The notes beneath the pieces are model-generated. The model had not been told where the DNA came from and made no database searches. It saw only the letters and a list, made by a program, of their open reading frames with translations. The translations under genes and the position numbers were made by a program. From the NCBI GenBank assembly GCA_030765065.1, contig CM060990.1:664776618-664840617 (forward strand): a stretch of 64,000 bases of DNA, in the 5' to 3' direction. Origin of the DNA: Deroplatys truncata. Taxonomy: Eukaryota; Arthropoda; Insecta; Mantodea; Mantidae. This document shows, one piece after another, positions 9,685-50,468 of this stretch (the first letter of the stretch is position 1; every line of letters starts with the position of its first letter).

Positions 9685-10670
9685 TGAGGCAGTTTTTTAA
9701 CACTTAAATGATTTCAGTCAAATTATGCAATATAAAATATTAATAAAAGCCCGCCTTAAAGCAATATGTGTATGTAACAAGATATAAAAAGTGTATATTA
9801 CAGTCGTTGTATATGTTTATATTATTGTATACATGTTCAATAATGTTATGTGAGTGTACTACGTAATTTAATAATGTAGGAACTGTGAGAATAATAGGTT
9901 AAAATTTGCTAACAATGAGGTAACCTTGAGGCAATAATGAATTTTAAAGTTAAACAATGCTACTAGTCATTATTGGAGCAACAATAATGTAAATTTTGTG
10001 ACAGTTTATAAAATAGCAAATCAACAACCAGAAAAAGCTTTAGTTAAATGAAGCTATTCTATTGGACTAGAACTAGCCAATCAGAAAGTGAAATATAGCA
10101 AAATTTACAAATCTAGAAGTCAGTTGCTTGTAGACAGTGCTCATAACTGGACGTATTGGTTGTAGACAGTGTTACTAATCAGACACGAGATGTGTCCTCG
10201 AGAAATTTAATACGTATTCGTGTGAGACGAAAATAGTTTAGTGTTAAAAAGTGCAAATAATTAACAAAAGAATCTCACAGCTCTCTATATCAGTGAAGTG
10301 TTATTTAAATCGTGTCAAGCATTAATAAATGGAGTGAAGAAAAATGTAAAATCTGCGTAAGCCTACATTCTTCAGTCGCACCACCTCCCTGCTAAGAAAT
10401 TCATGTCTCTAACAATAATACTGACGCAGCCGAGGCAAACATAAATATACAATATTTAAAGAAACAGTCAAACTACAAAGTTAATATTTTTTAAACATTT
10501 TTGGGGCAAGGGCCACCGGAAAGTACATTTGGGGCGAAGGCTACCGGAAACCGGGTACTATACGTGCGGTTGCAACGAACTTCAAGTTCGGCTCCCAACA
10601 GTTAAAAGAAATACATCTTCAAACTGACTTTCCATACGTAACAACAATACAACAAAGTATAACTACTTCA
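9685..10670 (+). mobile_element. Solo LTR, family A, copy 1
   Basis: The 986-bp element starts TGAGGCAG, ends CTTCA and is flanked by the 4-bp direct repeat ATGT (9681-9684, 10671-10674), the signature of LTR-retrotransposon integration. Inside are CCAAT-type boxes (GCCAATCAG near 10076), a TATA-like CTCTCTATAT (10281-10290), a poly(A)-signal AATAAA (10324-10329) and two primer-binding-site-like blocks at the 3' end. No gag/pol sequence accompanies it, so it is a solo LTR left by recombination. Other copies: 20061, 23994, 28043, 39333, 45845, 49455 and, on the minus strand, 38700 and 63323. Confidence 0.85.
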
Positions 10671-10674
10671 ATGT

Positions 10675-11343
10675 TTAAATGAAATCTCGGAGTACCATAT
10701 CGAATGTTACTGTAACAGATCTCTTTACATAAACTGCCATTTCATTCAAGTGCGCTGCTCTGTGAAGTGCGGCTTTAAGTGTTCTAGTTCTCATGTGCGA
10801 GATTCTGTATCGCAACTGCGGTGTACAGTATTCTTCCTGCGGCTATAGGAATTTTTTGTTTCTACCGGAGACTCTCGATGAGAAAAACAAGGAGAAACCT
10901 ACGCTAGAAAACTCGTGCTTTCCTCTTGAAACAAAGACTTGAATTCACTATTCGTTTGCGGTCTGTAAGCACTGTATGCGTACATATAACCTATCAACCT
11001 AATAGTTTATCGAAACACGATTGGCATAGAAATTTATACATAATCAGATGATGCCAGAGATAATCCTGTGGCTGTCAGATTTTAAAGTACATGAAAGCAT
11101 ATATTAGCGGTTATATTAACTACAGTAGCGGTATTAATGTTGATTTCTTGTTAAAAAGTAAATGTTATTCCTGTTTTTATGAATATTTCTGCTATATTCT
11201 TGGATAGGTGTTTAGTATATACTTAAGTTTAATTTCTCATTTTGGTTTGAAAATACTATATGAAAGCCATTTTTCAGGATTGGAAGATCATGTTTGTACA
11301 GAATAAAATAAACATAATTAATAAACACGCCTCGACGTATTTC
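10675..11343. other. No supported feature
   Basis: AT-rich sequence between the LTR and a Tc1 remnant; no coding signal recognised. Confidence 0.4.
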
Positions 11344-11575
11344 TAGTTTATGTTTGCATCTCCATTGTTCTTAAAGACTTGTAAAATTGTCTTGGGCATT
11401 GAGTGAACAAAGATGTCTAATTCTTCCATAGAAATTGAAGCCCACTCTGTCCAAATTGACTTTTTCGACTGAGTAAAACATCCAAACTGCAATCTGTTGC
11501 AATACAAACATCTTGCTAGGATTCCCCATAGATTTTCGATTGGATTCTTATCGTGGTTGAAGTTAAAATATAAAA
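11344..11575 (-). pseudogene. C-terminal remnant of a Tc1-type transposase
   Basis: Minus-strand translation from about 11575 contains NPIENLWGILAR, the Tc1 block holding the third catalytic residue (the E of NPIENLWG in DD34E enzymes). It continues with IWTEWASISMEELDIFVHSM and IFKNNGGD-like residues typical of the transposase tail, then stops near 11344. The upstream domains (helix-turn-helix, first two catalytic acids) are absent, so this is only the 3' fragment of a dead element. No terminal inverted repeats were identified. Confidence 0.6.
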
Positions 11576-12764
11576 CAATGTCGCAAAAATGTAAAAATCA
11601 AAATTTATATTTTTGCAAAATTATGCTAGTAGAATATTGTATAATTTATACTATTAGTGAGGGTTTTAAAAGTGAAATGTGTGTATATTGAATTGAATCC
11701 TGCAGTGAATGAAATTTTACTGTTTTTTTTTTAAATTAACTTTTATCCATTCCATATCATATCTATAGTAAGCTGTCAGTATTGATTTGCATATTTTGCC
11801 TTTTGAAAATCAAAGTCATTGCGAGATGGCCCTTCAAAATTAATTATCAGAAGTTTGCTATTTCTACAGAAAGGCGATTTCTGATTTCTGTTTTTATATT
11901 GTTCATGCAACTAAAGCCTCGCTCACAGTCAGCTGTCTGCAGGGGTATAGTAGTGGCGTGTTCAATAATTAAATCCATAAATGGGAATTATTCACTCATC
12001 TTATTAACATAAATGAACACTACCAGTTCTTTGTAATTCATTCAATTGCATCTACTGTTCAACATCTACAATGCCCATTCCAGGAACAGATCATTTAATT
12101 TCATAGATATGACAGAATTAATTAGTGCATATATTTCTGTGATTTCCTTATTGCCATACTCGCCATCATTTCTGTAACTTTTAGGATACAGTATATTAAA
12201 TACTCCAATCTTATATAAATCCCCTAGTCTCTTATTCAAATTTATAAGCAAATTATCTAAGGATTTGCAATTATGAACTTATCCACAATTCTATGCTGAA
12301 TCTTGTATTACATTTCCACAAAACTTAACCTCACTTTTTTCAAATTCTGGAGGTACTTTATAAAGAAAAGAAATGTAACTTGGACCAGGTTTCAATTTAA
12401 TGTCCTCAAGCCCTTGTATGCATGAGTTCACGCAAATTTTCATGCACTCTGGATCTAAAATTGACTTTCGAGAAGGTCAAACACAATTTGTTAACAAGAA
12501 ACATGACATCTTCCATAAAAAATAACTGTGACAAATATTTTAGACACTTTACATTTTTAGTAGGTCAATAGCTACTAGTGTGGTATCTTTCTGCAGCACA
12601 TATATCAAATAATTCCAATTTACATATTGTGAATTTACTGCCTCTCCCAATGAGAGCCAGCGAATGGAAAAAGCTTTAACAATTTTTTTGTTTGCCTCAT
12701 TAAGTATTTCTTGCATATCTTTTAATGCTTTGAAATTCTTTGTTGACTACTTAAAGTAGCTATA

Positions 12765-13303
12765 CAGGAGGGACCACTTTAAGTTGAGACTGTACGGTAT
12801 CTCCAAAACTAAGCGTTGTAGAAAGAAATGTCTTGAATAAAAGTTGCTTAATACTATGGGATAAAGTAAATGCCATTAGTCGTGTTTTGTCTGGAGGACG
12901 TTATGATGGTCATTTTCGGGTCAATTTAATTCCTTTGAAATGAGAACCTACATTTCGTATATTGTTTTCTCGTTAGAAAATTGTTTATGAAAATCTGTTT
13001 ATTTTGTGATGAGGAATAAGGAAACAAAATAAAAAAAATGTTCGTTCCTAATTACGAAACGTAACTTGACTCTCAAATGGCCATCCATGAATGGTCCAAC
13101 CATTCATTGCGCTCTTCGTAGACAGCCATTCAGTATTTTTGTTGTTATTTTCGTTAGTGTAAGAGCATTTGCAAAGTCTTTTATACAAATGTTGCTTAGT
13201 TGTTTATGAGGAGTGAGAAAACAACATAAAAAAGAAGACATTTCTTTATACAACGCTTAGTTTTGGAGATATTGTACATTCCCAACTTAAATGGTTCACC
13301 CTA
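12765..13303. mobile_element. Mariner-type MITE-D, copy 1, inside the hAT pseudogene
   Basis: Both ends carry ~65-bp inverted repeats. The left begins CAGGAGGGACCACTTTAAGT and continues to ACTAAGCGTTGTAGAAAGAA; the right is the inverted complement ending AAATGGTTCACCCT. It is flanked by TA on each side, the Tc1/mariner target duplication. The inside is non-coding. It interrupts the hAT coding frame: residues on the two sides join as a continuous hAT-like stretch when the element is removed. Related copies: 29727, 44831 and 58651. Confidence 0.8.
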
Positions 13304-13537
13304 TATATTCTGTTTAGAATATATTGAAACTTCACAAGCAGCGAACAATATTCTGTTGCTCGACTGCCTGCTAGAGCTAACCAATGGGCCACACAATGCA
13401 GAGATAATATATGGGGGTAATTGTTTTTAAAAGGAGTTGCCACCCCAGATCGAACTCCTGCCATAACAGATGCACCATCAGTAGCAACTAAGGAGTACTT
13501 ACTCCTATCAAAGCCATGCCTATTAAAAATTCCTGCA

Positions 13538-13545
13538 ACACACAC

Positions 13546-13586
<41 letters not shown>
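13538..13586. repeat. (AC)n microsatellite, ~24 units
   Basis: Nearly pure AC dinucleotide run with one ACG interruption. It sits inside the hAT pseudogene, where it encodes artefactual Cys-Val runs on the minus strand and shifts frame between the two catalytic-D segments. Confidence 0.95.
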
Positions 13587-13587
<1 letters not shown>

Positions 13588-14279
13588 CAGTACACTTTAT
13601 TAGCGAACGCAGTGTTACGTAATGCGTGTGCATTTTCCCCTTCTGCATTATTTTCACATACATTATTAGAGCTTCTATTTGAATAATGTCAGTAGACTCA
13701 TCTATTATGATTGAATACCACCTGGCTGACTTTATTTTCGATAAAATATCATTAGTCATTGTTTTACACACTGCATCCATCCTCCATGTCATGATTACTA
13801 CGATAGCGTTCATAATTTGTATTAACACTGAAAGTTTATTTAGTCAAAGAAGGATATTATAAATTTATACAGTTTTTTTAAATAGGGAAAGCTTACTTGT
13901 ATTAATATTTTCCTTCGTTATTGTGTAGATGATTTTCATAGCGGCTACTACATTTTCCTCAGCATTTTTACAGGATGCAGCGGAGGCTTTGACAAAATTG
14001 GTGCCTCTAGCGACTCTCGAACTGAATTCTTATGGCCCGCCGAGATTTCATGCCGCCACCACCATCACCTCAAGGATTACCACAGAGAGGTTTGGAACCT
14101 ATGGATTTGCATGCATCTCCATTTAGCTACAACACCACCTCATCCCCTTCGCCGACTGTCAACCACCACAGTACCGTCATTCATGACGTCTCATACCAGC
14201 TCTCCAATCCCACGCTTCGCCTTGAATGTCAGTGATTATATACTTCAATATTAGCGGCAAGCTGGATTCATTCAGCTAA

Positions 14280-14745
14280 GAGACCTAGGTGCTCCCTGTG
14301 CCTGATTCTCACCGAAGAGGGACCTGGCTATCAGACTCGGAAGTGTGCGAAGCAAAGCCTAGCACTTCGACGCCGGTGCTTTGCCACCTACGGAAGTTCA
14401 AACTAGTTCACGGACCATAACAGTTGCCTTAAAAACCCATGTGCCAATCGTTGATCACATCTCAGCCTCTTCAGCAGCCTGCGCGCCTTCGGAGGCGTTA
14501 GAGGCCTTACTAGCACAGTTCCTCAACACCTTGATGAAGCCAGACAGCAACACTTTCCAGGAACTTCAACAACGGACAATAACAATACAAATCGGTTTGA
14601 ACAGTTCTGCAGCATGGGAGACCTCGCTGACCTCAGAATCTTGAGCTTTTCCCGGGAGCTGAGAAGGATCTGTAGGCTACTGTTACCAACGGAGGAAGTG
14701 GCTGCCCTCCCGAGGCATAATGCGGAGGTCACATGCTCTCAAAGA

Positions 14746-14780
<35 letters not shown>
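14280..14780 (+). other. GC-richer unclassified segment ending in (AAT)n
   Basis: About 460 bases of moderately GC-rich sequence with open plus-strand frames (Thr/Ser/Pro-rich, and a second frame with LPTEEVAALPRHNAEV) end abruptly in a (AAT)12 run at 14746-14780. Short tandem 3' tails of this kind terminate some LINEs, so a 5'-truncated retroposon is possible. No motif settles it. Confidence 0.35.
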
Positions 14781-14782
<2 letters not shown>

Positions 14783-16131
14783 CATGTCCTCCTCTCACAC
14801 CCATTCACTTTCTCACCCATAATCCGCTGCGGTGTAAATCTGGGCCTAGTTTAACTTTACTGCTAGACCTTCATCTTTTCCCCTGGCCCATAACATTTTC
14901 TGTTGGCCAATTACACCCTCACCTTTAAATCCGGGATGCAATAGCGGTACCACAATATGAACACACCCAAGTATTCCTTTACCCTATTCTTTTCTATCTT
15001 ACGTTTTCCTTCTTCTTTACTAACTTGAAACATCTCCCATTTCCCCCACCCAGAAAAGAAACAAGAGAAAGACCCTTGCGTTGTTAGTATGTGTTGGATT
15101 CACTTTTATCTGCTGTGGGGAAAATCCTGAGTTGGACAGGTTAGTGAGCGATCCGAAGGCAGAAGAGGCTAAGTTGAGCCCCGTTAATTAAAGCGTTCCT
15201 TGCAGGGAAAAAAAGTGACTAGAGAAAGAGCGAATTAACTAGCAATATTTTGCTCAGAATAAAAACGTTACTGCATTTCTTTCTGTATACCGTTCAGAAT
15301 CACCACTTATTAATGAACTTCTGCAGCCCTTCCCCTTCCTCTATAAACGGGCACATCTTGTGTCGGCAGCTTAAATATCATGGATGCATGCCTTTTTTAT
15401 ATACTTCAGTTCTAAGTGATCCTAAGAGATGTCGCTACTATGACTACAGCTTTCCAGTTGTTCTCAACGAGCAGTTAAAGTACTGTGAGTGACTCACGAG
15501 ATTGGCTTTGTCCTTGAACTGCAAGCGTGCGGTGGACTAAGGAGCTTCTTGCCTACGATGCAAATAGCTTAACACCAGCAGTTCAAAACGATTGTCAACA
15601 GGTGCAGTTCAAATAGTGTTTCACATGTATATGGTCATACATATAGGGTTTACATGTATGCAGGTTTTACAGGTTTACTTATTGAAAGTATGATCATAAT
15701 TGTATTGTTTGATGCAGTAATATAATGTACTACTGATGCTACTTCGCGTAATATTTATTGTTCCGGGAAAGAAAGGATATAAGCAACTTTGGAACAGGGT
15801 GTGAAACAATAGAGCGAGAGGGAAGAACAATACAGCGCTGGCTCAGGTTCGCTTACGTCAACCACAAGGACAGAGCTAAACTCCTGAGTCGCTGACAGTA
15901 GCATATAATTGAAGCAAAGTGCTCTTTACCGTGCAGCTTCATTTAACTCTATCGTTTTCATTTACAAAACAGGAGGATTTCTTGGAAGCAAACAGCACAT
16001 GTATACCACACACAGAGTTGATATTGAACTGTGGAACTATTGTTTGCAAGATGAACGTTGTTGGACGCACAAAATCCCCAGTTTATGATAGTGCATTTCT
16101 TTCTCCAGACACCTTTCTTACGTCGGCGACA
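14781..16131. other. No supported feature
   Basis: Mixed-composition spacer up to LTR-G copy 1. The plus-strand ORFs at 15250 and 15919 have no recognised domains; the latter runs into the LTR. Confidence 0.4.
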
Positions 16132-18595: not shown

Positions 18596-18707
18596 TAGCT
18601 TACCACTACAGAAGCTGGCGCAAGATACAACGGAACGAGCTACGAGATCATGGCAGTAGAATCAACAACGAAGCAGGTAAAGTAAACCTTCGTTCCTGTA
18701 CCAGTTT

Positions 18708-20060: not shown

Positions 20061-21013
20061 TTCAAAGCATTTAGAAGAACACTTAAATAATTTCAATCTA
20101 ATTATATAATATATAAATTCAATAACAATCCGCCTTGAAGCAATATGTGTATGTAATAATTTGTAAAATGTATGCAACAGTCATTGCATATGCTTATATT
20201 ATTGTATCCATGTGTAACAATGTTATGTGAATGTATTACGTAATTTAATAATGTAGGAGCTGTGAGAATAATAGTTTAAAAGTTGCTAACAATGAGGTAA
20301 CAATGAGGTAACAATGAGGTAACCTTGAGGCAATAATGAGTAAGAATGTTTAATAATGCTACTAGTCATTATTGGAGCAACAATAATGTAAATTTTGTAA
20401 CAGTTTATAAAATAGCCAATCAACAACCAGAAAAAGCTATAGTTAAATGAAGGTATTCTATTGGAGTAGGATTAGCCAATCAGAAACTGAAAAGGAGAAA
20501 ATTTTACAAATTTAGAGCTCAGTTGCCTGCAGACTAACCAGACACAAATGTGTCCTCAAGAAATATAATATGTATTCGTGTGAGACGAAAAATAAGTTTA
20601 CGTGTTAAAAAGTGTAATTAATTAACAAAAAGAATCTCACAGCTCTCTATATCTGTGAAGTGTTATTTAAATTGTGTCAAGGATTAATAAATGTAGTGAG
20701 GTAAAATTATAATCTGTGTAAGCCTACATTCTTCAGTTGCACCACAACCCTGCTAAGAGAAGCGTGTCTCTAACAATAATACGACGCAGCCGAGGCAAAC
20801 ATAAATATTTAATACTTAAAGAAACAGTCAAATTACAAAGTTAATATTTTTAAAAATTTGGGCAAAGGCTACCGGGTACTATACGTGCAGTTGCAACTAA
20901 TACAAGTTCGGCTCCCCAACAGTTGAAATATAATACAACTCCTTCAATACAACCTACTTCAAAATTGACGCCCAAAGCGTGGTGCAAACAACGTAAAGAC
21001 AATATCTACTTCA
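20061..21013 (+). mobile_element. Solo LTR, family A, copy 2 (decayed left end)
   Basis: The body matches LTR-A throughout, but the start is altered (TTCAAAGCATTTAG in place of TTGAGGCAGTATTT). It has one U3 30-bp unit and a triplicated AACAATGAGGT motif near 20286-20330. The 3' end carries GACGCCCAAAGCGTGGTGC and finishes CTACTTCA at 21013. The flanking 4-mers (AAAC left, AAAT right) are similar but not identical, so the target duplication is uncertain. Confidence 0.75.
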
Positions 21014-23993: not shown

Positions 23994-24964
23994 TGAGGCA
24001 GTATTTTTAACACTTAAATAATAAGTTATATAATATGTAAATTCAATAACAGACCGCCTTGAAGTAATATGTGTATGTAATAATTTGTAAAATGTATGTA
24101 ACAGTCATTGCATATGCTTATATTATTGTATCCATGTGTAATAATGGTATGTGACTATATTAAATAATTTAATAATGCAGGAGCTGTGAGAATAATAGGT
24201 TAAAAGTTGCTAACAATGAGGTTACAATGAGGTAACCTTGAGGCAATAATGAGTAAGGAAGTTTAAATACTACTAATCATTATTAGAGCAGCAATAATGT
24301 AATTTTGAGACAGTTTAAAAATAGCCAATCAACAACCAGAAAAAGCTTTAGTTAAATGCAGGTTTTCTATTGGAGTAGGATTAGCCAATCAGAGACTTGA
24401 AATACAGAAATTTACAGGTTCAGACGGTTGAAATCAATTCAGTTGCCTCCAAACAGTGCTCATAAGCAAACGTGTTGCCTCCAAACAGTGTTCATAACCA
24501 GACGTGTTGCCTGCAGACAGTGCTCATAACTGGGTGCGTTGCATGTGTGTCCTCGAAAGACTTAATACGTATTCCTGTGAGACGAAAAATAAGTTTACGT
24601 GTTAAAAATTACAAGTAATTAATTAAAGAATCTCACAGCTCTCTATATCAGAGAAGTGCTATTTAATTTGTGTCAAGGATTAATTAAAAGGAGTGAATTA
24701 AAACTTAAAATCTGCGTAAGCCTACATTCTTAGTCGTATCACAAACCTGCCTAAGAGAAACGTATCTCTAACAAATACTGACGCAGCCGAGGCAAACATA
24801 AATATAATATCTAAAGAAACAGTCAAATTACAAAGCTAATGTTTTTAAACTTGGGGCAAAGGCTACCTGAAACTGTTTACTATACGTGCGGTTGCAACTA
24901 CTACAAGTTCGGCTCCCCAACAGTTGAAATATAATACAACTCCTCCAAAAATTAACTTTTCTCA
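23994..24964 (+). mobile_element. Solo LTR, family A, copy 3
   Basis: The 971-bp element starts TGAGGCAG, ends TTTCTCA and is flanked by AATT (23990-23993, 24965-24968). This copy has three tandem ~31-bp U3 units (GTTGCCT-CAGACAGTG-TCATAACC type, 24443-24545), more than any other copy. Its 3' end has only the first primer-site-like block (TTCGGCTCCCCAACAGTT). Confidence 0.85.
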
Positions 24965-28042: not shown

Positions 28043-28982
28043 TGAGGTAGTATTTTTAACACTTAAATGATCTTAGTCAAATTATAATAAAAAAAATATA
28101 ATAACAGCCCGCCTTGAAGCAATGTGTGTATGTAACAACATAAAAAGTGTATATTACAGTCGTTGTATATGTTTATATTATTGTATACATGTTCACAATA
28201 TGTTATGTGAATGTATTACGTAATTTAATAATGTAGGAGCTGTGAGAATAATAGGTTAAAGGTTGCTAACAATGAGGTAACAATGAGGTAACCTTGAGGC
28301 AATAATGAATTTGAAAGTTTAATAATACTACTAGTCGTTCTTGGAGCAACAATAATGTAATTTTTGTGACAGTTTATAAAATAGCCAATCAACAACCAGA
28401 AAAAGCTTTAGTTAACTGAAGGTATTCTATTGGACTAGGATTAGCGAATCAGAGACTTGAAATACAGAAATTTACAAATTTAGGCGCAAGAAATCAAGTC
28501 AGTTGCTTGTAAACAGCGCTCATAACTGGACGCGTTGGTTGTTGACAGTGTTCCTAATCGGACGCGAGAAGTGTCCTCGAGAAGTTTAAAATGTATTTTG
28601 TGTGAGACAAAAAAAAATAGTTTACGCGTTAAAAAAGTGCAAGTAATTAATAAAAAAAATCTCACAGCTCTCTCTGTATCAGTGAAGTGTTATTTAAATC
28701 GTGTCAAGCATTAATAAAAGGAGTGAATTGAAAATCATAATCTGTGTAACCCTACATTCTTCAGTCGCACCACAACCCTGCAAAGAGAAACATGGCTCTA
28801 ACAATAATACTGACGCAGCCGAGGCAAATATAAATATATAATATTTAAAGAAACAGTCAAAATTACAGTTGGGACGAAGGCTACCGGAAACTTTTTACCA
28901 TACGTGCGGTTGCAACTACTTCAAGTTCGGCTCCCCAACAGTTGAACTACGATACAACTCCTTCTAAAATACTCCTTTCTCA
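28043..28982 (+). mobile_element. Solo LTR, family A, copy 4, inside hAT element 2
   Basis: The 940-bp element starts TGAGGTAG, ends TTTCTCA and is flanked by ACTT (28039-28042, 28983-28986). The hAT sequence resumes seamlessly after the duplication (compare 22470-22490). It is the shortest copy: it ends right after the first primer-site-like block. Confidence 0.87.
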
Positions 28983-29573: not shown

Positions 29574-30786
29574 GAATCTTATGTGAGACTTTCATAGTAT
29601 ATTCTCTACCCTCTATCGTTTATTAGTGGATGTACAAACTATTCCTACTAAAGCTTAATTGTATATCTACTTCATTTTACTCCAAAGAGACTTTTGCAGA
29701 AGAACTGCATTACACATTTCGTTATATACGGTGGACCGTTTAAGTTGAGACTGTAAAATATCTCCAAAACTGAGCGTTGTAGAAAGAAAGAAATGTCTTT
29801 ATTAAAAGTTGTTTAATATTATGGGGGAAAGTAAATACCATTAGTGGTGTTTTATTTGGAGGACGTTATGGTAGCCATTTTAGGATCAATTTAATTTTTA
29901 AATGGTAACCTACAATTAGGGTCAAATTAAATTGACCCTAAAGTTACCATCACAAGGTAATGCCTTTACTTTCACACATATCAAACAACTTTTATTCAGG
30001 ACATTTTTTTCTACAACGCTTAGTTTTGGAGATAATGTACAGTCTCAACTTAAATGGTCCATCCTGCAGATACAAAGGGAACAGTGATATTCAAATGCTT
30101 AATAACTGGATGCTATCGGCTGGCCTTAAAATTCCATACTGTTGCAATGGAATCGCGAGAAACAACTGAATGTTGACAGGACTAAACAAATGGCTGTGCT
30201 GAACAATTCGAAACTAATAACGGATATCTCGAAAATGGCTGATTCCACAAAAAATTTATTTGAAATAAATTGTACGTGTTAAAGTGATCTACATTTTTGT
30301 GTAGTACGTTTTCCTCTATCGTTTAACGTTTACCAGCTATACAAGATTGTAAAAAATTCCTTCGAAATGAAGAGGACTTCAAAGGCTATTCCCATAAAAT
30401 TCGAGATGTAGATTTTGTTTTTCATATAATTGTCTTTCATATGTGGTATTTTAATCAAACTCGTTGGAGACATTTTTTTAGAAAATAAAAAGTTTCAAAA
30501 AAGCTCCTATGTAAAGGTTAAATTGGGGTGATGGGATTTTCTTGAAAATCTTCGTGTCGCATCTTTGGAAGGTACTGAACTTAAAAACCAAGTATGGTAT
30601 TATCTGACTTTTCGTTTTTGAGTCATGCTATTCACAGAAACACAGATAGATACACATAGGGACCTTTTTCTAAAAATGCGTTTTTAGTAATCAGAGGGCC
30701 TCAAAACATGTACTTCCGGTTAAATTCCGGTACTGAATTTTTGGTGTAATGCAATACCTTCTCTACCTACTATGTGCGTGGTAGCG
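29574..30786 (-). mobile_element. Repeat E, copy 2, inside hAT element 2, carrying MITE-D
   Basis: Inverted relative to the copy at 7542. Flanked by GAAATAAAAA at 29564-29573 and 30787-30796, while hAT element 1 has a single comparable site, which supports insertion with an ~8-10 bp duplication. Without MITE-D it is ~870 bp. No ORF. Confidence 0.7.
29727..30067. mobile_element. MITE-D, copy 2 (internally deleted, long TIRs)
   Basis: The left CGGTGGACCGTTTAAGTTGA and the inverted right end are joined by ~160-bp arms that nearly meet, with centre GGGTCAAATTAAATTGACCC. It is therefore almost a perfect foldback. The left TA is present; the right reads CA. It lies within Repeat E copy 2: the host sequence continues as at 61805. 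Confidence 0.8.
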
Positions 30787-35059: not shown

Positions 35060-37150
35060 ATTCTTCTTCAAACCAAGTGTTAGGCCATCAGGCCTGTTAA
35101 GATCTCACTAAGAAATTTTCCCTCCATCTCTTCTTCGGACGCCCGTGTGATCTCTTTCCCCTAGGAACGTACTGCATTACAGCTTTGGGAATGCGTTCTG
35201 GGCCCATCCTAATTAGGCGTTGTCTCCAGTTGTTCAGCAATGTTGATTCCCAGGACTAGTTGCATCTTCATCTCTTGTAAAATAAACTCATTGGTCTATA
35301 GATCCCATTTGGTATCACCAGCAGTCCTTCACATAAAATTCATCTCTGCAGAAAATTTTCTGCTTCAACATACACTATGTGATCAAAAGTATCCGGACAC
35401 CCCCACAAACATACGTTTTTCATCTTAGGTGCATTGTGCTGCCACCTACTACCTGGTACTCATTATCCGCGACCTTAGTAGTCATTTGACATCATGAAAC
35501 AGCAGAATGGGACGCTCCGTGGAACTCAGAGACTTCGAACGTGGTCAGGTGATTGGGTGTCACTTGTGTCAGAAGTCTGCACGCGAGATTTCCACACTCC
35601 AAACATCCCTAGGTCCACTGTTTCTGATGTGATAGTGAATGGAAACGTGAAGGGACGTGTACAGCACAAAAGCGTACAGGCCAACCTCGTCTGTTGACTG
35701 ACAGAGACCGCTCACATTTGAAGAGGGTCGTAAAGAGTAATAGGCAGACATTCATCCAGACCATCACACAGGAATTCCAAACTGCATCAGGATCCACTCC
35801 AAGTACTATGACAGTTAGGCGTGAGGTGAGAAACATCACGCAGGAAAATGCCAAACGACGCCTCGCTTGGTGTAAGGAGCGTCAACATTACACGATTGAA
35901 CAGTGGCTAAACGTTGTGTGGAGTGACGAATCACGGTACACAATGTGGCGATCCGATGGCAAGGTGTGGGTATGGCGAATGCCCGGTGAACGTCATCTGC
36001 CAGCGTGTGTAGTGCCAACAGTGAAATTCGCAGGTGGTGGTGTTATGGTGTGGTCGTGTTTTTCCTGGAGGGGTCTTGCATCTCTTGTTGTTTTGCGTGG
36101 CACGATCACAGCGCAAACCTACATTGATATTTTAAGCACCTTCTTGCTTCCCACTGTTGAAGAGCAATTCGGGGATGGCGATTGCATCTTTCAACACGAT
36201 CGAGCACCTGCTCATACTGCGCGGGCTGTGGCGGAGAGTGGTTACACGACAATAATATCCCTGTAATGGACTGGCCTGCACAGAGTCCTGACTTGAATCC
36301 TATAGAATACCTTTGGGATGTTTTGGAACACCGACTTCGTACCAGGCCTCACCGAGCTACATCGATACCTCTCCTCAGTTCCGCACTCCGTGAAGAATGG
36401 GCTGGAGTTCCGCAAGAAACCTTCCAGCACTGATTGAAATTATGTCTGCGAGAGTGAACGTTGTCATCAAGGCTAAGGGTGGGCCAACACCATATTGACT
36501 TTCAGCATTGCCGATGGAGGCGCCACGAACTTGTACGTCATTTTCAACCAGGTGTCCGGATACTTTTGATCATGTAGTGTATCTCTCTTCTTTAGGGCCC
36601 AAGTATAGCACAGGTCTTGCTAAGGCTTTGTACAGCCTTAGACGAGTGTGCTTTTGCAGTAAAGCTGGTTTGAAGACACCACTGATTATTCCCTTTGTTT
36701 TATTAAACTTTAATATTTCGTCGTTTATGTTCAACTTCATGAAATATGACGGTTTGTTCCAAGGTATATAACTTCAGTTTTACTCCCTAATGTTGTAGAT
36801 TTTATACATATTTTGCTTAGAATTTTATATATTCTCTTAAATGCTATTATTTTGACATTTCCATATCATGCTGATGTGCTATTTTATGTAGATTGTATAT
36901 AGATAGTTGTAAACCCTCATTACCTCTTGGTAATACTATATCATCTGCAAAAAGAATTATATATACGAGTATGAATTGTCTTCTATTTAATGTTACATAT
37001 CCATGTTGAATCTCTATCTAATTTTTAATCATATGGTTAATGTAGACTATGAAGAGCAATGGAGAAAGTCCACAACCCTTTCTTACACCTGTGTTTATAT
37101 TTACCATTCTGATATGTTACCATAAATTGCGGAAGCAGTTTTCTTTGATG
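35060..37150 (-). mobile_element. LINE remnant with reverse-transcriptase motifs, split by Tc1
   Basis: Minus-strand translation from ~37110 gives TGVRKGCGLSPLLFIVYI and then ILFADDIVLPRG, reverse-transcriptase motifs including the FADD catalytic box (plus coordinates ~36940-36960), then YNLHKIAHQHDMEMS. Decayed sequence follows, then LLQKHTRLRLYKALARPVLY-LGPK. The reading continues beyond the Tc1 insertion with IRMGPERIPKAVMQYVPRGK and GRPKKRW, the usual tail of this LINE group. It lacks endonuclease and fingers, so it is 5'-truncated, and stops and deletions are frequent. The related plus-strand copy at 45600 has the same C-terminal layout. Confidence 0.8.
35373..36579 (+). mobile_element. 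Tc1 transposon with recognisable full transposase, frameshifted
   Basis: Inverted termini CACTATGTGATCAAAAGTAT / inverted complement, both flanked by TA (35371-35372, 36580-36581). Coding starts at ATG 35507 (MGRSVELRDFERGQVIG). It includes a helix-turn-helix (IPRSTVSDVI), QTASGSTPSTMTVRREVR, a deletion of ~15 residues, LAWCKERQHYTIEQW, VVWSDESRYTMW (first D), GGGVMVWSCF, CIFQHDRAPAHTA (second D) and DWPAQSPDLNPIEYLWD (E). All three DD34E acids are present. Frameshifts lie near 35602, 35660, 36228 and 36430. The copy ends ~36496. It inserted into the antisense LINE, and appears younger than the mariners. Confidence 0.9.
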
Positions 37151-37928: not shown

Positions 37929-38699
37929 TTTCAGCTTTAATTCTCATTTATGTCTTGTGTCACTTCTCCTTTCATTACCACTGCTGTTAGCTCTTACGTT
38001 TTAGACTTTTAGTTAAAACCGCGCTGTTTAGGGATATTTTAAAATTTCTTGTTAATAAGTGCTCAAGTTCGGAATTAATGGGCTTTGTTTTCCTTCATTT
38101 CCATTGACCTGTAATAACATCCTTTGGCCCCGGACACCCTTACTTATCAAGGGGTAACAAGATAAATGTGGGAGCTATTACTCCATTTTAAGCGTGTTTC
38201 GGCATATTTTAAGGTCTTAATTTTATACCTTTTAAATGACCTAAACACGGGTATTCAGGATAAAAAGAAGAAAATGTGCTGGCTTAAAACAATAAATTCG
38301 ACGTGTTTCTAAGAAAACTTAAAATATTTAAGGGGAGACTAAAATCCTTATCCCACCAGTGTTAAATCTGCTAAATCCATGACCCATTATCCTGTACACT
38401 GTTAGAATAATATAATGTAATTTTTATAGAATGTAGATATCACTGATCTGCTTTTATACAGTGCGTTTCCTTCCTACTGCGGCCAACACACAGATTCTCG
38501 CATCCCGCCCGCCGCAGCTCTTACTCCCGTTGAAATGGTTATAATATCGCCGCAAACGCCTCACGTTCTCATATTTACAGTGACAATAAGCAGAAGTATA
38601 CCTTATAATAAGAGATGGTGAAAATGTTTTCCTTCTGTATCCACATATTTTTGGGCATATTTTCAGGAAAAGTTCATTCACACTTGAAGTAGAATTGTT
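37929..38699. other. No supported feature
   Basis: AT-rich spacer. Minus-strand ORF 38454-38681 is unrecognised. Confidence 0.4.
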
Positions 38700-38911
38700 C
38701 TTTACGTTGTTTGCTGCTACGTATGAAAAGCCGATTTGAAGTAGTTTGTATTGAAGGAGTTGTATCGTATTTCAACTGTTGGGGAGCCGAACTTGTAGTA
38801 TTTGCAACCACATGTATAGTAAACAGTTTCCGGTAGCCTTTGCCCCAAGTTTAAAAAATATTATTAACTTTGTAATTAAACTGTTTCTTTAAGTATTAAA
38901 TAATTATGTTG
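38700..38911 (-). mobile_element. Truncated LTR-A fragment, minus strand
   Basis: Contains the inverted 3' part of LTR-A: AACTGTTGGGGAGCCGAACT, GGTAGCCTTTGCCCCAAG and AACTGTTTCTTTAAGTATTA. It stops abruptly at ~38911, where SINE-5-related sequence begins. The U3 half is missing. Confidence 0.7.
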
Positions 38912-39332: not shown

Positions 39333-40440
39333 TGAGGCAGTATTTTTAACACTTAGATGGTTTCTGTCTAAATATATAATATATAAATTCAATAACAGCC
39401 CGCCTTAAAGCAATATGTGTGTAACAATATATAAAAAGTGTATATTACAGTCATTGTAAATGTTTATATTATTGTATACATGTGTAATAATGTTATGTGA
39501 ATCTATTACGTAATTTAATAATGTAGGAGCTGTGAGAATAATAGGTTAAAAGTTGCTAACAATGAGGTAATCTTGAGGCAACAATGAGTAAGAATGTTTA
39601 ATAATACTACTAGTCATTCTTGGCAGCAATAATGTACTTTTTGAGACAGTTCATAAAATAGCCAATCAACAACCAGAAAAAAAGTTAAATAAAAGTATTG
39701 GATTAGAAATAGCCAATCAGAAACTTCAAATACAGAAATTTACAAATGTGGCGGTAGAAATCAAGTCAGTTGCTTGTAGACAGTGCTCATAACTGGACGT
39801 GTTGCTGGAAGACAGTGTTCCTGACGCGAGATGTGTCCTCGAGAAATTTAATATGTATTTTGTATGAGACAAAAATAGCTTACTTGTTAAAAAATGCAAG
39901 TATTTAACAAAAGAATCTCACAACTCTCTATGTCAGTGAAGTGTTATTTAAATCGTGTCAAGCATTAATAAAAGGAGTGAAGTAAAGTTATAATCTGTTT
40001 AAGCCTACATTCTTCAGTCGCACCACAACCCTTCAAAGAGAAACATGTCTCTAACAATAATACTGACGCAGCCGAGTCAAATTACAAATTTTAAATTTTT
40101 AAATATTCTTTGGGGGGGCAAAGGCCACCGAAAAGTACATTTGGGGCGAAGGCTACCGGAAAGCGGGTACCACACGTGCGGTTGCAACTACTTCAAGTGT
40201 TCGGCTCCCCAACAGTCGAAATATAATACATCATCTTCAAACTGACTTTCCATACGTAGCAGCAACAACCTACTTCAAATTGGCTTCCAAAGCGTGGGGC
40301 AAATAACAATACAACAAACCATCTTCTCAATGAGAAGAGATGGAAAAAAATAAGGAAATAGACCACATTCAAACACCTAAAATAGATGTTTAGCTGGTAA
40401 CAATTAAACACAAAACATTTTGGAAAACACAAATGCTTCA
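39333..40440 (+). mobile_element. Solo LTR, family A, copy 5 (longest)
   Basis: The 1108-bp element starts TGAGGCAG, ends GCTTCA and is flanked by ATAA (39329-39332, 40441-40444). The extra length lies at the 3' end, which contains three primer-site-like units: TTCGGCTCCCCAACAGTC, CTGACTTTCCATACGTAG, and TTGGCTTCCAAAGCGTGGGG. Confidence 0.87.
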
Positions 40441-42180: not shown

Positions 42181-42204
42181 TAATTAACAGAATGAAGAGA
42201 ACTT

Positions 42205-43384: not shown

Positions 43385-43555
43385 ACCTAAGTAGATGTTC
43401 TGTGCCAATGCCCCGGACGGGCACCCCCGGGAGAGAGGGACTAGATGAGAAAAGACAGAGGGCGGCCAGACCAGGAGGCGCGACAGGCAGAGGGCAGGGT
43501 CCCTACCATTTCCAGATTTGAACTCCCCCAGATGGGCACTGCTGCAGCCGGGTCC

Positions 43556-44417: not shown

Positions 44418-44759
44418 GTCCTCTCCCCCACTAGCTTCCATATCCCCTGTCAGGCTTGGGATCCAGAGAACGTCCCCATTCCGCTGCCGAAGGTTACCAT
44501 AGAGCATCCTTTTACCCTGCTATGCACATGCCGAGACCCCCCGCCGACACCTGCAAACCAGAAGCAACCAAGCGATGAAAGGTGAAATGCGAATGGAGGC
44601 GAAATGGAGGGACAAGATATTCGAGGGACGTAATGATCCTTCCCAGCATTCGCCTAGCGACCAGGGCGAATCCCCAAAAAAACCCATGGGTCAGGAAGGT
44701 CGACCAAGGGAATCGAACCCACGGCCTACAGAATGCGGGGCACCGACGTTACCGCCTGA

Positions 44760-45563
44760 AATTAAAAAATTAAATTGAATTTTATTAATGGAAACTCTTT
44801 AACTCCTATGGTTCTTAGCGTTCCATTCTACAGGGTAGACCATTTAAGTTGAGACTGCGCAATATCTCCAAAACTAAGCGTTGTAGAAAGAAAAGGTTTT
44901 GATAAAAGTTGCTGGATATTATGGGGGAAAGTTGTATGTTTTGTATGTTCCTTTCCCATTAAAAAATGGTTTACAAAGAGCTGTTTATTTTGTGATGAGG
45001 AACAAGGAAACAAAATAAAAAGTGTTAGTTCCCAATTACGAAACGTAACTTGACGCTGAAATGACCATCCAGGGTGGTCCAACCATTCATTGCGCTCTTC
45101 GTACACAGCCATTCAGAATTTTCGTTGTTATTTACATTGATGTAAAAACAATTGAAAAATGCTTTATACAAATGTTTTTAGTTTTTTATGAGGAGTGAGA
45201 AAACAACATAAAACAGGACTAATGGCATTTACTTTCCCCGTAATATCAAGCAGCTTTTACTCAAGACATTTCTTTCTACAACGTTTAGTTTTGGAGATAT
45301 TGTACGATCTTATCTTTAATGGTCCATCTTGTATATTGGGTATGAAGGACCGAAAATTTTGCTCAGAGGGCTTTTTATCAGATTTGCGGTTCTTTTACGT
45401 GCTGTAAATCTACGACACGGGACCACCGGCTTTACTTCCCTTCCGAAGGAAGTCATGCTAAGGATTCTTACGCCCGAAAAAAAAATCCATCGCCTCCGCT
45501 GGGTTAGAATCCACGACCTCTGGAATTAGAAACAAGCATGGCCCCCCTACAGCACGGAGGAGA
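44760..45563 (-). mobile_element. SINE-1, minus strand, inside SINE-2 and split by MITE-D
   Basis: Flanked by ACGTTACCGCCTGA (44746-44759) and ACATTACCGCCTGA (45564-45577), a 14-bp target duplication with one mismatch taken from SINE-2. Inverted tail at left, inverted head at right. The MITE divides it at CATTCTA / TATTGGG. Confidence 0.85.
44831..45331. mobile_element. MITE-D, copy 3, inside SINE-1
   Basis: The 501-bp element starts CAGGGTAGACCATTTAAGTT and has an inverted right end finishing GGTCCATCTTG. Exact TA duplication at 44829-44830 and 45332-45333; removing the element and one TA restores the SINE-1 sequence seen in other copies. Confidence 0.92.
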
Positions 45564-45599
45564 ACATTACCGCCTGAGCCATCCCGCTCGTTTTAAGGG

Positions 45600-47190
45600 G
45601 AAACATCCAAACAGTCCGATCTAAAATTATTATAGGTAATGACATTGTAGAACTGTCTCCAATTTAAAATATTTAGGTTGTGATGTCAATTATTAGAGAG
45701 ACAAAGATGTTATGGAAAAATTCGCAAAGCTCCATTTGGTGTGTAGAACAATTCAGAGGATTTTAAAAAATAAGACAAGTAAGGTTACCAGAACAAACTT
45801 TTACAAAACAATGGCCATTCCGCTTATAACATATGGTAGCAAGTTGAGGCAGTATTTTTAAAACTTAAATGGTTTCAGTCTAATTATATAATATATAAAC
45901 TCAATGACAGCCCGCCTTAAAGCAATATGTGTATGTAACAATATATAAAAAGTGTATATTACAGTCATTGTATATGCTAATATTATTGTATACATGTAAT
46001 AATGTTATGTGAATGTATTACGTAATTTAATAATGTAGGAGCTGTGAGAATAATAGGTTAAAAGTTGCTAATAATGAGGTAACCTTGAGGCAATAATGAA
46101 TTTGAAAGTTTAACAATACTACTAGTCATTCTTGAAGCAAAAATAATGTAATTTTTGTGACAGTTTATAAAATAGCCAATCAACAACCAGAAAAAGCTTT
46201 AGTTAAATGAAGGTATTCTATTGGACTAGGATTAGCCAATCAGAAACTGAAATAGGGCAAATTGTACAAATTTAGGCGGTAGAAATAGTCAGTTGCTTGT
46301 AGACAGCGCTCATAACTGGACGCGTTGGTTGTAGACAGTGTTCCTAACCGGACGCGAGATGTGTGCTCGAGAAATTTAATACGTATTCGTGCGAGACGAA
46401 AATAGTTTACGTGTTAAAAGTGCAAGTAATTAATAAAATAACCTCACAGCTCTCTATATCAGTGAAGTGTTAATTAAATCGTGTCAAGTATTAATAAATG
46501 GAGTGAAGAAAAACTTAAAATCTGTGTAAGCCTACATTCTTCAGTCGCTGTTAAGACATTCATGTCTCTAAAAAAAATATAAATACTGACGCAGCCGAGG
46601 CAAACATAAATATATAATATTTAAAGAAACACTCAAAATTACAAAGTTAATATTTTTTAATTATTTTTGGGTAAGGCCACCGGAAAGTACATTTGGGGCG
46701 AAGGCTACCGGAAACTTTTTTACCATACGTGCGGTTGCAACTACTTCGAGTTCGGCTCCCCAACAGTCGAAATATAATACACCTTCTAAAAAATGGCTTT
46801 CCATACGTAGTAGCAACAAAACTTCTTCAAATTGGCTCCCAAAGCGTGGGGCAAATAACGTAAAGACTATACCTTCGTCAAAGTCGTAGAGACCAGCCAA
46901 ATTCAAGCGCCAGAGATGAAATTCTTGGGGCGCGTTAAAGGTTGTACGAGAGAAGGCCAACTACGGAACGGAAACATAAGACAAGAACTAAACATATCTG
47001 CCCTTAATGACAAACTTATAGATCATCGCAGGAACTGGACACAGCATGTACAAAGAATGAAACCAACAAGAATTCCAAAAATAGTCCTAACCTACAGACC
47101 AACAGGTAGAAGGTAGACCTGTGAAACGTGGAGAGAGCAATGATTGGGAAGGCGAAATAGGCTGGAAGTCGGATGATGATGATTTACTGT
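45600..47190 (+). mobile_element. LINE ORF2 C-terminal remnant, split by LTR-A
   Basis: Left piece: LKYLGCDVNY, then AKLHLVCRTIQRILKNKT and TNFYKTMAIPLITYGSK, ending at 45844. Right piece from 46881: VVETSQIQAPEMKFLGRVKG, REGQLRNGNIRQELNI, HRRNWTQHVQRM and RIPKIVLTYRPTGRR, with a final GATGATGATGA-type tail near 47180. These are the region after the reverse transcriptase and the C-terminus of the same LINE group as 35060-37150. A few in-frame stops. The frame continues across the LTR insertion with little or no loss, so the LTR-A inserted into an already truncated copy. Confidence 0.82.
45845..46880 (+). mobile_element. Solo LTR, family A, copy 6, inside the LINE
   Basis: The 1036-bp element starts TGAGGCAG, ends CTTCGTCA and is flanked by AAGT (45841-45844, 46881-46884). 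The 3' end contains TTCGGCTCCCCAACAGTC, a CTTTCCATACGTAG unit and ATTGGCTCCCAAAGCGTGGG. The host LINE confirms the boundaries independently. Confidence 0.92.
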
Positions 47191-49450
47191 AATCGATCCA
47201 GCATTAGAACCAGACTTGTTGTTAATCAAATATTTTGTATCCCTCCGCGTTAGCTTCGTGTTCGTAACAGCTGAGGAACAAACGTAAAGAAATGCCACGT
47301 GTACTCAAGTCTCGTGTTTATAATGCATTAGAACGGTTGTCTTGTTCAAACAAATAAATAATTATGTAAACCCTAAATAAAAGCTGATTTGAAATTAAAT
47401 ACAAGTTAAAATAAACAGCATTAATCCGTAGCTGCGTCATTATCAGAAAGAGGCGTAAAATCTGGGTCTCCCTCATACGAAATCCTCTCTGTAAATAGCT
47501 ATATTCTCCTTATATCTACTCAGGAAACTATATCCCATTCTAGCAATAACTTATGAAAAGTGGATTGCTTAAAAGAATGTAGCGTAGCATCACTGTTCAC
47601 AGAAATTAAGACTTTGTCAAACGCTGGCGTTCGTTGTTAAAGACAACTCTTTCAAGTAAAGTCGTCTACTTTTTCTAATTCTGACGTATTTTTGTTTTTC
47701 TACCTTGGTGTCCGCAATGCTCTCGTTTCCTTTAGTTCTTTACACGCGCATGAAACGCTCCACTCAGAAACAGCGGTATAATTTGCTGTTAGTTTAGCAA
47801 TATTACTTATAAGACAGCTCTATTCTTTTTCTGTGGTTCGTTAAAAACATTTAAAACAATTCGTTTCTCGCCGATTTTAAGAATGTTTCACTATTGTCAC
47901 TTACCAAGCTACCAGCACTTGAACCATTGTCGTATGAATGCAGAAGAGGTTTACACCACACAGACTTAAACAAAAGCTACAAACTCCTTTAGTTTTACTA
48001 TTCATATTGTTTAGTCTGTTATATCAATCAGATGCTTTGAACTATGATTAACAAGCTTCTTGAAAACTAACATATAATCGCGCATATTTTGACGGAACGT
48101 CACTTTGCCAAACCGGCGCTACACCAGATGTGACAGCACATAGCGTCTTCACTAAATGTGACGGGGTCGTGGAGGTAGCTCAGGGATGTCATCGGGAGGG
48201 TAATAGGTTGCGGGTAGCTGTAAGTTGATGAAGGAGTGACATTGTTAGACGTGTAATTTTTATTCCAAAAGAGGCTTTAATGTTTTTAATAACTAACCTA
48301 AACTACATTGCAAGAGAGAAAGAGAGACAGCTTTTGGGTTAACCCGGTTGATGGAAGAAGTCCCGTGTTTCATTTTCACGTCTCGGAGACCGGTGTAAAA
48401 ATTGCAAGATTAACCCTTTAACCCTTTATTGCAGGAATTATTTTGCTACATATACCGCTCTTCCTCCAATTCCTAAACCGGCTTTTATATCCTGACACCA
48501 CAACCGAAGCGATTCAAATAGCCGCAATCGTAAGAGCGAGACGAAATGCACTGGCCATCCATTCAAAGCCAAACGTCGTGAGTTCGAATCCCAGCGACTG
48601 CAGTCAAATGCGCCTTGTGATAAAAGAAGGGGAGGACCCAAGTAAACTAACCGGTGTGATGGTATGCTTGGATGCTGACGGGGTTACATTTGACTGCAGT
48701 TTCATGGATTTTGCTTATTATTTAAAAAAACTACAGTTTTATTGAAAAAATTAACAATTTTATAATATAAATCAGCTATAAATAGCTTAATTTTATTGCT
48801 GAAGGTTAGCATAATATGACATTTAAAAAAAGTCTATTAAAAATAGCATTTGTAACAAATTTGGTGCAACAGGCTAGTGGGTTAAAGGAATACTCTTAGA
48901 GGAAAGACGGGCTACGCACGTGACTAAGGTCATTCACGACCGCCAAAAGCGTAATTTTAAATACTGCGGCTCGAGCTGACCAAATGGTAGTCTCAGTGCT
49001 TATCTAAACCAGCATGAATTGCGTAATTTCTCCACGTGTCGAACTTCCATGAAACCGAAATGATCATTTCCCCCCCCCCAAAAAAAAAGCATACCATCCA
49101 ACCCCTGCTTACACAAGCATCCGGAAAATGACTCGCAAGAATTATAATACTAAATTCATGGATTTACTTAAACAAGTTTTGTATTGAGTGTCTCGAACTT
49201 TATAAAATTAGATTTACCACACTCTTGTAAAACAAAAACTGTAACCGTCACAATATTTAAGGTACTATATGTGCTCTGGTTTTGCGGGCTAATTATAACG
49301 TCATATTTATACAGTGCGGTCGTTTTATGGCGAGGCCACGGGTAGCGCGTATGCGTGATCCGCACACTATTACACTGAGGGTTTTTCGTTCCATCCCGCG
49401 GTACTTACGAGTGATAGTAACATGCACCATAATGAGTACTAACTTGTTAT
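47191..49450. other. Mostly unassigned; weak tRNA-like patch near 48515-48605
   Basis: No LINE, LTR or transposase motifs. Near 48590 the B-box-like GAGTTCGAATCCCAGC and preceding sequence suggest a decayed tRNA-derived element, but the A box is poor and no second copy was noticed. Confidence 0.35.
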
Positions 49451-49454
49451 AAGT

Positions 49455-50468
49455 TGAGGCAGTATTTTTAACACTAAAATGATTTCAGTCTAATTATATA
49501 ATATAAATTCAATAAAGCTATATGTGTATCTAACAATATATAAAAAGTGTATATAACAGTTATTGTATATGTTTGTATTATTGTATCCATGTGTAATAAT
49601 GTTATGTGAATGTACTACGTAATTTAATAATGTAGGAGCTGTGAGAATAATAGGTTAAAAGTTGCTAACAATGAGGTAACATTGAGGCAATAATGAATTT
49701 GAAAGTTTAAATGCTACTGGTCATTATAGGAGCAACAGTAATGTAAATTTTGAGACAGTTTAAAAATAGCCAATCAACAACCAGAAAAAGCTTTAGTTAA
49801 AAGAAGATATTCTATTGGATTAGGAATAGCCAATCAGAGATTTGAAATACAGAAATTTACAAGTTTAGGCGGTTGAAATCAGTTCAGTTGCCTGCAAACG
49901 GTGTTCCTAACCGGACGCAAGACACGTCCTCGAGAAGTATAATGCGTATTCGTGTGAGACGAAAATAGTTTACGCATTAAAAAGTGTAAGTATTTAATAA
50001 AAACATCTCACAGCTCTCTCTCTATATATATCAATGAAGTGTTATTTAAATCGTATTAAGCATTAATAAAAGGAGTGAAGTAAAATTATAATCTGTGTAA
50101 GCCTACATTCTTAGTCGTACCTCAACCCTGCTAAGAGAAACGTGTCTCTAACAATAATACTGACGCAGCCGAGGTAAACATAAATATTTAATATTTAAAG
50201 AAAGAGACAAATTATAAAGTTAATATTTTTTTAAACTTGGGGCAAAGGCCACTTGGAAGTACATTTGGGGCGAAGGCTACCGAAAATTGTTTACTATACG
50301 TGCGGTTGCAACTACTTCAAGTTCGGCTCCCCAACAGTTGAAGTATAATACAACTCCTTCAATACCACCTACTTCAAATTGACGCCCAAAGCGTGGTGCA
50401 AACAACGTAAAGCAAACAATCCTCTTCAAATTGGCGTTCATACGTGGGGCTAATAAAATACTTCTTCA
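49455..50468 (+). mobile_element. Solo LTR, family A, copy 7
   Basis: The 1014-bp element starts TGAGGCAG, ends ACTTCTTCA and is flanked by AAGT (49451-49454, 50469-50472). It carries one U3 unit, but three primer-site-like 3' units (TTCGGCTCCCCAACAGTT, TTGACGCCCAAAGCGTGG, TTGGCGTTCATACGTGGGG). It abuts a mariner remnant. Confidence 0.9.

Follow-up and report, generated by a model that had tools for sequence, protein, structure and literature searches.

It is textbook retroelement biology that the primer-binding site (PBS) sets the end of U5 in the long terminal repeat (LTR), and in retroviral vectors engineered with two PBSs, initiation can occur at either one, setting the U5 end. To our knowledge, the gain of sequence by U5 has not been well explained to date, despite the wide variation in LTR length. 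Among described systems, the Osvaldo lineage of insect Ty3/gypsy elements has LTRs of 997-2055 bp in a mosquito set and a PBS that is always that of transfer RNA (tRNA)-Lys, and the available part of the same source also describes sequence conservation that extends across the LTR/PBS boundary, an element (cqgypsy_1) that has a tRNA dimer together with a 26-nt LTR duplication at the PBS, and tandem repeats in the 5' untranslated region of Mag-lineage and non-autonomous LTR elements (PMC3286476). The LTRs of the non-autonomous elements Helenus and Ajax contain tRNA-like and 5S-derived sequence, respectively, and the tRNA-like part of Helenus has, according to the available part of the source, no complementarity to its own PBS (PMC10886601). 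Here, we analyzed a 64-kb stretch of DNA (hereafter the window; 37.6% G+C) from the 4.29-Gb assembly of the mantis Deroplatys truncata (GCA_030765065.1, contig CM060990.1, positions 664,776,618 to 664,840,617), which contains nine copies of an LTR family named LTR-A, seven near-complete on the + strand and two partial on the - strand. With good confidence, we propose that LTRs of the LTR-A group lengthen by capturing their own PBSs via shifted priming. Most likely, each unit in their tails was once an LTR end together with its PBS and was taken in when priming shifted to a site further downstream, as suggested by the LTR/PBS junctions of full-length relatives, the grammar of the tails, a gradient of PBS decay, solo LTRs bounded by target-site duplications (TSDs), and a series of capture steps.

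The PBS for tRNA-Lys1,2, given as TGGCGCCCAACGTGGGGC in the available part of its source (PMC1084362), is matched perfectly at 2,689 + 2,743 places in the genome. When the motif CTTCA was required to precede a perfect PBS within 5 nt (N0-5), 628 + 646 (1,274) places were found, compared with 0 + 0 for the reversed control. The first 30 of these 1,274 junction loci, all from contig C1 and with no other selection, were examined by eye. At 14 of them, the PBS, sometimes with more PBS-like units, was followed by a purine-rich internal leader, while 16 (15 distinct, as L026 is the same as L027) lacked a leader and mostly had the PBS inside an LTR tail that continued to another CA end, the exceptions being L017, which continues into an inverted copy, and L018, which is a miniature. 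A 3' LTR was located downstream for 13 of the 14 leader loci, and the identity of its main aligned block to the 5' LTR was 97.3-99.9%. The full elements number 13 rather than 14 because L009 and L010 are tandem partners; L009, L010, and L039 are tandem copies with common LTRs (LTR-internal-LTR-internal-LTR), 2,726 bp apart and 99.96% identical over 2,526 bp.

In all 13 elements with both LTRs, which had themselves been picked by a perfect Lys1,2 PBS, the LTR ended 3 nt before such a PBS, and the gap was AAT, or once TAT. This agrees with a preliminary description of the window, made from the letters alone, in which each tail unit had been taken for a former LTR end plus its PBS. Exact 4-bp TSDs flanked 10 of the 13, and the 5' start was degraded or not resolved in L013, L021, and L022. 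The LTR boundary lay at the chosen PBS in 11 of the 13 elements and at another PBS in L019 and L032. Each of these two has a pair of perfect PBSs, separated by 98 bp in L019 and by 70 bp in L032, of which the first marks the LTR end and the second abuts the leader; in L011 and L022, too, another perfect PBS lies downstream of the boundary that is used. At L029 and L047, the two LTRs of one element differ in that only the 5' LTR has a segment of 128 bp preceding the PBS unit.

The same junction recurs inside the LTRs. Tail statistics were based on 30 LTRs (12 from full elements, 12 solo, and 6 from the window), with the tail defined as the last 420 bp. Copies 2, 8, and 9 of the window and, among the full elements, L022, whose 5' LTR is truncated, were excluded from the tail, pair, and gap counts, and L018 (76 bp) was excluded from the pair counts and those at scores of at least 18 (29 LTRs); the end of copy 3 was placed 4 bp too far in the tail, pair, and gap counts. 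PBS-like sites scoring at least 18 numbered 63 in the tails and zero in the bodies, and 58 of these 63 had a CA no more than 8 nt upstream, vs. 49% expected. At scores of at least 15, the density was 7.18 per kb in tails vs. 1.12 per kb in bodies (30 LTRs). Of 54 LTR-internal units scoring at least 20, 47 had a gap of exactly 3 nt from CA to PBS (6.9% at control positions), as did 32 of the 39 units that were imperfect and so had not been selected by the search pattern; a gap of 3 nt is that of the real LTR/PBS junction. In the subset of LTRs inspected, a tail unit consists of CA, 3 nt, a PBS-like block, and a spacer of 13-64 nt that itself ends in CA. The preliminary description had held that full-length copies with a single unrelated PBS, and units without tRNA complementarity, would speak against its idea; what we found instead was the tRNA-Lys junction in 13 of 13 elements and its 3-nt gap in 47 of 54 units.

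Within an LTR, the units are graded. When pairs of units from the same LTR were compared, 25 of 30 had the greater PBS likeness in the unit nearer the LTR end (0 of 5000 permutations), although this gradient was weaker at thresholds of 20 (16 of 21 pairs; 106 of 5000) and 22 (15 of 18; 24 of 5000). In full elements, the mean unit score was 36 at the boundary and then 24.7, 21.0, 18.0, and 15.0 moving inward (n = 12, 11, 8, 5, and 1, at a threshold of 15, where some matches are chance).

Solo LTRs with an inner perfect PBS appear to represent fresh captures. Among 19 such LTRs examined, an exact TSD was found at the tail end in 12, a figure that includes the doubtful L056 (ending AACA) and possibly one or two chance matches, as many CA sites were tried; L028 and L033 had exact TSDs off unit ends, which were treated as chance, L015, L030, and L031 had one mismatch, and L014 and L017 had no TSD at a unit end. 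In 10 of the 12 TSD-bounded LTRs, the perfect PBS came last among the units. L018, the 76 bp around a perfect PBS, is a miniature solo LTR with an exact TSD (TGTT), in which ~25-30 bp of LTR start are fused to a tail with the perfect PBS, leaving almost no body. Captures can also be placed in order within one subfamily, where the number of captured PBSs is zero in L032, one in L029, and three in L034. L032 ends CGCGACA before PBS1 (TSD CAAT); L029 has a decayed PBS1 inside its LTR and ends CCACTTCA before a perfect PBS2 (TSD ATTG); and in the solo LTR L034, PBS1 and PBS2 are decayed and PBS3 is perfect (TSD ACTT). The LTR bodies of the three, and the spacer after PBS1, are alignable. Another locus, L055 (C1:181480000-181484400), is a tandem array of ~1,486-bp units, each with the LTR-tail/PBS/leader junction of the L029/L032 subfamily; it was considered as a two-capture step and not counted, since the LTR end in the array is not verifiable.

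Mechanistically, the process would begin with an RNA that carries two PBSs, at the downstream one of which tRNA-Lys primes. Minus-strand strong-stop DNA, and hence the new U5, would then reach beyond the upstream PBS, and the absorbed PBS, now present in both LTRs, would no longer be renewed from tRNA copying and would decay. Priming at a duplicate PBS explains capture and not the origin of the duplicates. These might arise at the second strand transfer, if plus-strand strong-stop DNA, ending in the tRNA-copied PBS, annealed to the wrong minus-strand PBS. Such an out-of-register transfer would duplicate the block between the PBSs and place a fresh PBS downstream, so that the ladder would feed itself; a strong-stop with spacer X and PBS annealing to an earlier PBS, for example, would yield X-PBS-block-X-PBS. 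Consistent with this, the terminal spacer was closer to the spacer before the LTR's own inner perfect PBS than to that of any other solo LTR in five of 10 scored solo LTRs (L024, L025, L026, L034, and L052; 0 of 10000 permutations, uncorrected for family relatedness; L056 was not scored). The spacers of L016, L035, L053, and L057, on the other side, misfit the duplication model, and L023 gave a second-best match only. We infer that an out-of-register second transfer is the source of new units with evenly balanced confidence. We lean somewhat more toward the broader picture in which the LTR boundary acts as a register that moves along a self-extending ladder of PBSs, with LTRs ratcheting outward and storing an ordered record of past priming sites.

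The window itself contains LTR-A as solo LTRs or fragments. Copy 1 (9685..10670, +) has the TSD ATGT/ATGT and ends ACTACTTCA, and copy 2 (20075..21013, +, with an approximate start at ~20075) is a solo LTR with a degraded 5' end. The short-ended copies 3 (23994..24964, +; TSD AATT/AATT) and 4 (28043..28982, +; TSD ACTT/ACTT) both end TTTCTCA. Copy 5 (39333..40329, +) has an imperfect TSD (ATAA/ATGA) and ends CTTCTCA; copy 6 (45845..46880, +; TSD AAGT/AAGT) ends TTCGTCA; and copy 7 (49455..50468, +; TSD AAGT/AAGT), the longest-ended, ends CTTCTTCA. Copy 8 (38685..38910, -) comprises the 3' part only, and copy 9 (63323..64000, -) is interrupted by the window end. Six copies start with TGAGGCAGT or TGAGGTAGT, a start that is degraded in copy 2 and missing from copies 8 and 9, and all nine have a CA terminus; the preliminary description gave these termini as (C)TTCA or TCTCA in every copy, which is incorrect for copy 6. 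The 4-bp TSDs were exact in five of the six testable copies (1, 3, 4, 6, and 7, with copy 5 imperfect), the test being inapplicable to copy 2, owing to its degraded 5' end, and to the partial copies 8 and 9. TG...CA ends with a short TSD are those of solo LTRs, and, by reading, no PBS or internal leader adjoins the 3' end of any of the nine copies, which are therefore solo LTRs or fragments. Since the TSD fixes the boundary, the differing 3' ends are real, and the earlier claim that LTR-A copies have different, independently set ends is upheld.

By alignment, the tail units of LTR-A are U1 (GTTCGGCTCCCCAACAG), a (TTGGCTTTCCATACGTAG), b (TTGRCGCCCAAAGCGTGGKGC), and c (TTGGCGTTCATACGTGGGGCT), with lengths of 35-58 bp, a wider span than the ~45-50 bp first given; a block quoted in that account, TTGGCGCCCAAAGCGTGG, has no exact match in the window and 572 + 505 in the genome. 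In copies 3 and 4, the LTR stops at the a position with a deleted form of that unit, and a is also partly deleted in copies 2, 7, and 8. The final unit of copies 2, 5, 6, 8, and 9 is b or one at its position, as is probably also the case for copy 1 by way of an internal deletion, to judge from the letters of that copy, and copy 7 ends after c, which is unique to it among the nine. In copy 1, U1 (10585..10621, +) has weak PBS resemblance and the Lys PBS resemblance of unit a (10622..10670, +) is not above chance; this unit is probably an a/b deletion product, as its tail has spacer letters in common with unit b of copy 5. Unit b of copy 2 (20962..21013, +) is tRNA-Lys PBS-like and is equalled by 2 of 5000 random window 26-mers. 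Copy 5 carries U1 (40196..40239, +), a (40240..40277, +), and a Lys PBS-like b (40278..40329, +), and copy 6 has a (46789..46829, +) followed by the top Lys PBS-like site of the window, its unit b (46830..46880, +; score 29/36). In copy 7, U1 (50320..50361, +) is accompanied by Lys PBS-like units b (50377..50428, +) and c (50429..50468, +; score 28/36). The last unit of copy 8 (38685-38736, -) has Lys PBS resemblance not above chance, and copy 9 contains units a (63381-63415, -) and b (63323-63380, -). When the whole window was scanned on both strands with the tRNA-Lys1,2 PBS, the five best sites (26-29/36) were all LTR-A b or c units. The next-best site scored 24, and 30 block shuffles gave a mean of 0.37 sites scoring at least 24, with a maximum of 2.

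Within the window family, L063 and L085 each show, at the position where copies 3 and 4 end, a junction with a perfect PBS and an LTR-A-type internal leader, and L088 has the b position before an imperfect PBS; these three boundaries were placed by the PBS rather than by LTR pairs. At L071, L074, L078, L084, L086, L088, and L089, a PBS variant with inserted letters (CCCAGCTGCGTGGGGC-like) adjoins the internal region of LTR-A-type leaders. Exact-pattern scans of viral and genome contig collections and plasmid blastn returned no relatives.

Several observations weigh against capture by shifted priming. Because the full-length loci were picked for CTTCA followed by a perfect PBS, such a site at the boundary is partly expected, although this selection accounts neither for its coincidence with the LTR end nor for L019 and L032. 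The genome has 104 places that match the internal pattern of the LTR-A-type leader and 1,540 that match the pattern of the other leader type. A perfect PBS is present in only two (L076 and L085) of 20 LTR-A-type leaders fetched by the former pattern; for the other leader type, six of 19 places, those within the span of the perfect-PBS matches listed, have a perfect PBS no more than 300 bp upstream, with two PBSs in three of the six. No LTR pair was obtained for the subfamily of the window itself, where U1 alone is weakly Lys-like (equalled by 293-749 of 5000 random 26-mers), unit a is equalled by 84 to 2,518 of 5000 and the copy 8 unit by 2,595, and the best score of unit a is for a tRNA-Glu PBS. 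Their location, their grammar, and the existence of clearer relatives lead us to read U1 and a as putative PBS relics. In a tree built from the LTR bodies of the window copies, a check that had been suggested for stepwise growth, the copies are not ordered by unit number: the short-ended copies 3 and 4 are not sisters, and both the a-deletion and the end position conflict with this tree. Finally, the perfect PBSs beyond the boundary in L011, L019, L022, and L032 could equally mean inward moves.

The last two points are also those that favor shrinkage or two-way sliding, in which priming at inner PBSs of an ancestral long ladder would shift the boundary inward as often as outward. Multiple perfect PBSs close together fit this as well: the 100 perfect PBSs listed fall into 88 loci, and at 11 of these, two or three are found within 150 bp. 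Decay toward the LTR body and the last-unit position of the perfect PBS in 10 of 12 solo LTRs, however, fit predominantly outward movement, and we regard sliding in both directions equally as unlikely. If, instead, units were modules traded between families, entering by template switching among co-packaged elements without stepwise growth of a lineage, similar spacers would be found in different LTR groups, as they are by eye, and the a-deletion and end position would be at odds with the body tree; but L032, L029, and L034, from one subfamily, have the spacer that follows PBS1 in common and are distinguished by units added on the outer side, which makes such trade a rather unlikely account. 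It is also conceivable that a multi-PBS array is selected because redundancy aids tRNA priming, with capture by the LTR as a by-product. In eight of the 13 full elements (L009, L011, L012, L013, L019, L022, L032, and L037), extra PBS-like leader units, some perfect, indeed lie downstream of the boundary. L020, L021, L036, and L038, however, have no clear second leader PBS and yet have near-identical LTRs, so redundancy is unnecessary for activity, and captured units decay rather than being kept intact; we consider this explanation quite unlikely.

An ordinary U5 minisatellite, that is, a tandem tail expanded by slippage, with PBS likeness due to chance or descent and no part for priming, would account for the rough periodicity of the units and for near-identical neighbors such as those in L026. 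In a minisatellite, the entire unit repeats, spacer included, and this was not found in the LTR tails, L026 being among the exceptions; the spacers of a given LTR are mostly different from one another, and it is the CA, the 3-nt gap, and the PBS that recur throughout. Moreover, LTR ends coincide with PBS positions, and perfect 18-nt complementarity to the tRNA occurs inside LTRs. The minisatellite is thus already largely refuted and, in our judgment, very improbable. Capture by shifted priming remains our preferred reading, and its outward direction is favored by the way units decay toward the LTR body and by the finding that fresh captures mostly occupy the last unit. The idea that the boundary was pushed outward, advanced in the preliminary description, is supported by the 25 of 30 graded pairs, the TSD-bounded perfect PBSs, and the step series; its direction is less strict than proposed, as inward moves and template switching may also have occurred, given the perfect PBSs beyond the boundary and the disagreement between end position and body tree.

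Other features of the window lie outside LTR-A. A ~90-bp sequence (TTTAAGTTGAGACTG...) is present in paired inverted copies (12778-12867 and 13215-13308, 29739-29828 and 29978-30071, and 44843-44932 and 45243-45336), which are perhaps the termini of a further transposable element family. At 60203-60784, a 293-bp repeat is present in two tandem copies that look, by eye, like a tRNA-derived short interspersed nuclear element. A 12-copy array of the pentamer ACCTA at 51615-51674 resembles, also by eye, an interstitial arthropod telomere repeat (TTAGG-like); both features are insect-like. A tRNA-Ser(GGA) gene is located at 7411-7485 and a Tc3-like transposase fragment, below the Pfam cut-off, at 35628-36266. 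Pfam searches of five open reading frames in the window gave only weak matches, to a reverse transcriptase zinc finger and to Tc3-like transposase, both below cut-off.

As for classification, the best explanation of these sequences is that LTR-A belongs to the Ty3/gypsy-like LTR retrotransposons primed by tRNA-Lys. Ty3/gypsy elements (Metaviridae) have TSDs of 4-6 bp, a range that includes the 4-bp TSDs found here. In one related element outside the window subfamily (L038/L051), an open pol of 1174 codons has RVT_1, RT_RNaseH, Integrase_H2C2, and rve above Pfam cut-offs and a protease slightly below, in the domain order of Ty3/gypsy. The primer tRNA-Lys is probably present, as the genome contains 121 + 6 exact copies of a tRNA-Lys 3' end. 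Of the 100 copies listed, 93 lie at C9:191136768-191189776 and beyond, in one orientation and mostly at multiples of ~144 bp, in what is apparently a giant array of genes for the same tRNA that would prime the elements.

Overall, our data suggest that the LTR/internal boundary shifts in discrete primer-site steps whose order is recorded in the LTR itself, so that dual priming and the register of strand transfer can be read out by counting in a natural system. They also serve as a warning for annotation and dating, as LTR/PBS boundaries need not stay fixed within a family. Among the open-licence papers listed by our searches, judged by titles and abstract openings, we found none describing PBS ladders in LTRs or LTR growth by PBS capture. 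Whereas retroviral vectors with two PBSs are engineered, dual priming here is apparently natural, repeated, and fossilized over many insertions. In its tRNA-Lys PBS, and to some extent in its long LTRs, the LTR-A group recalls the Osvaldo lineage; LTRs of the 12 full elements measured 771-1137 bp, of which seven reach the 997 bp of the shortest mosquito LTR and five are shorter. The available part of the source does not describe a ladder of former PBSs in the LTRs of that lineage (PMC3286476). The tandem repeats of Mag-lineage and non-autonomous elements are near the LTR boundary, as here, but are not called PBS units there or said to shift the LTR end, as far as the same part of that source extends (PMC3286476). 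Helenus and Ajax likewise carry small-RNA-related sequence in their LTRs, as described in the available part of the source (PMC10886601), whereas in the LTR-A group this sequence is the PBS, complementary to the tRNA.

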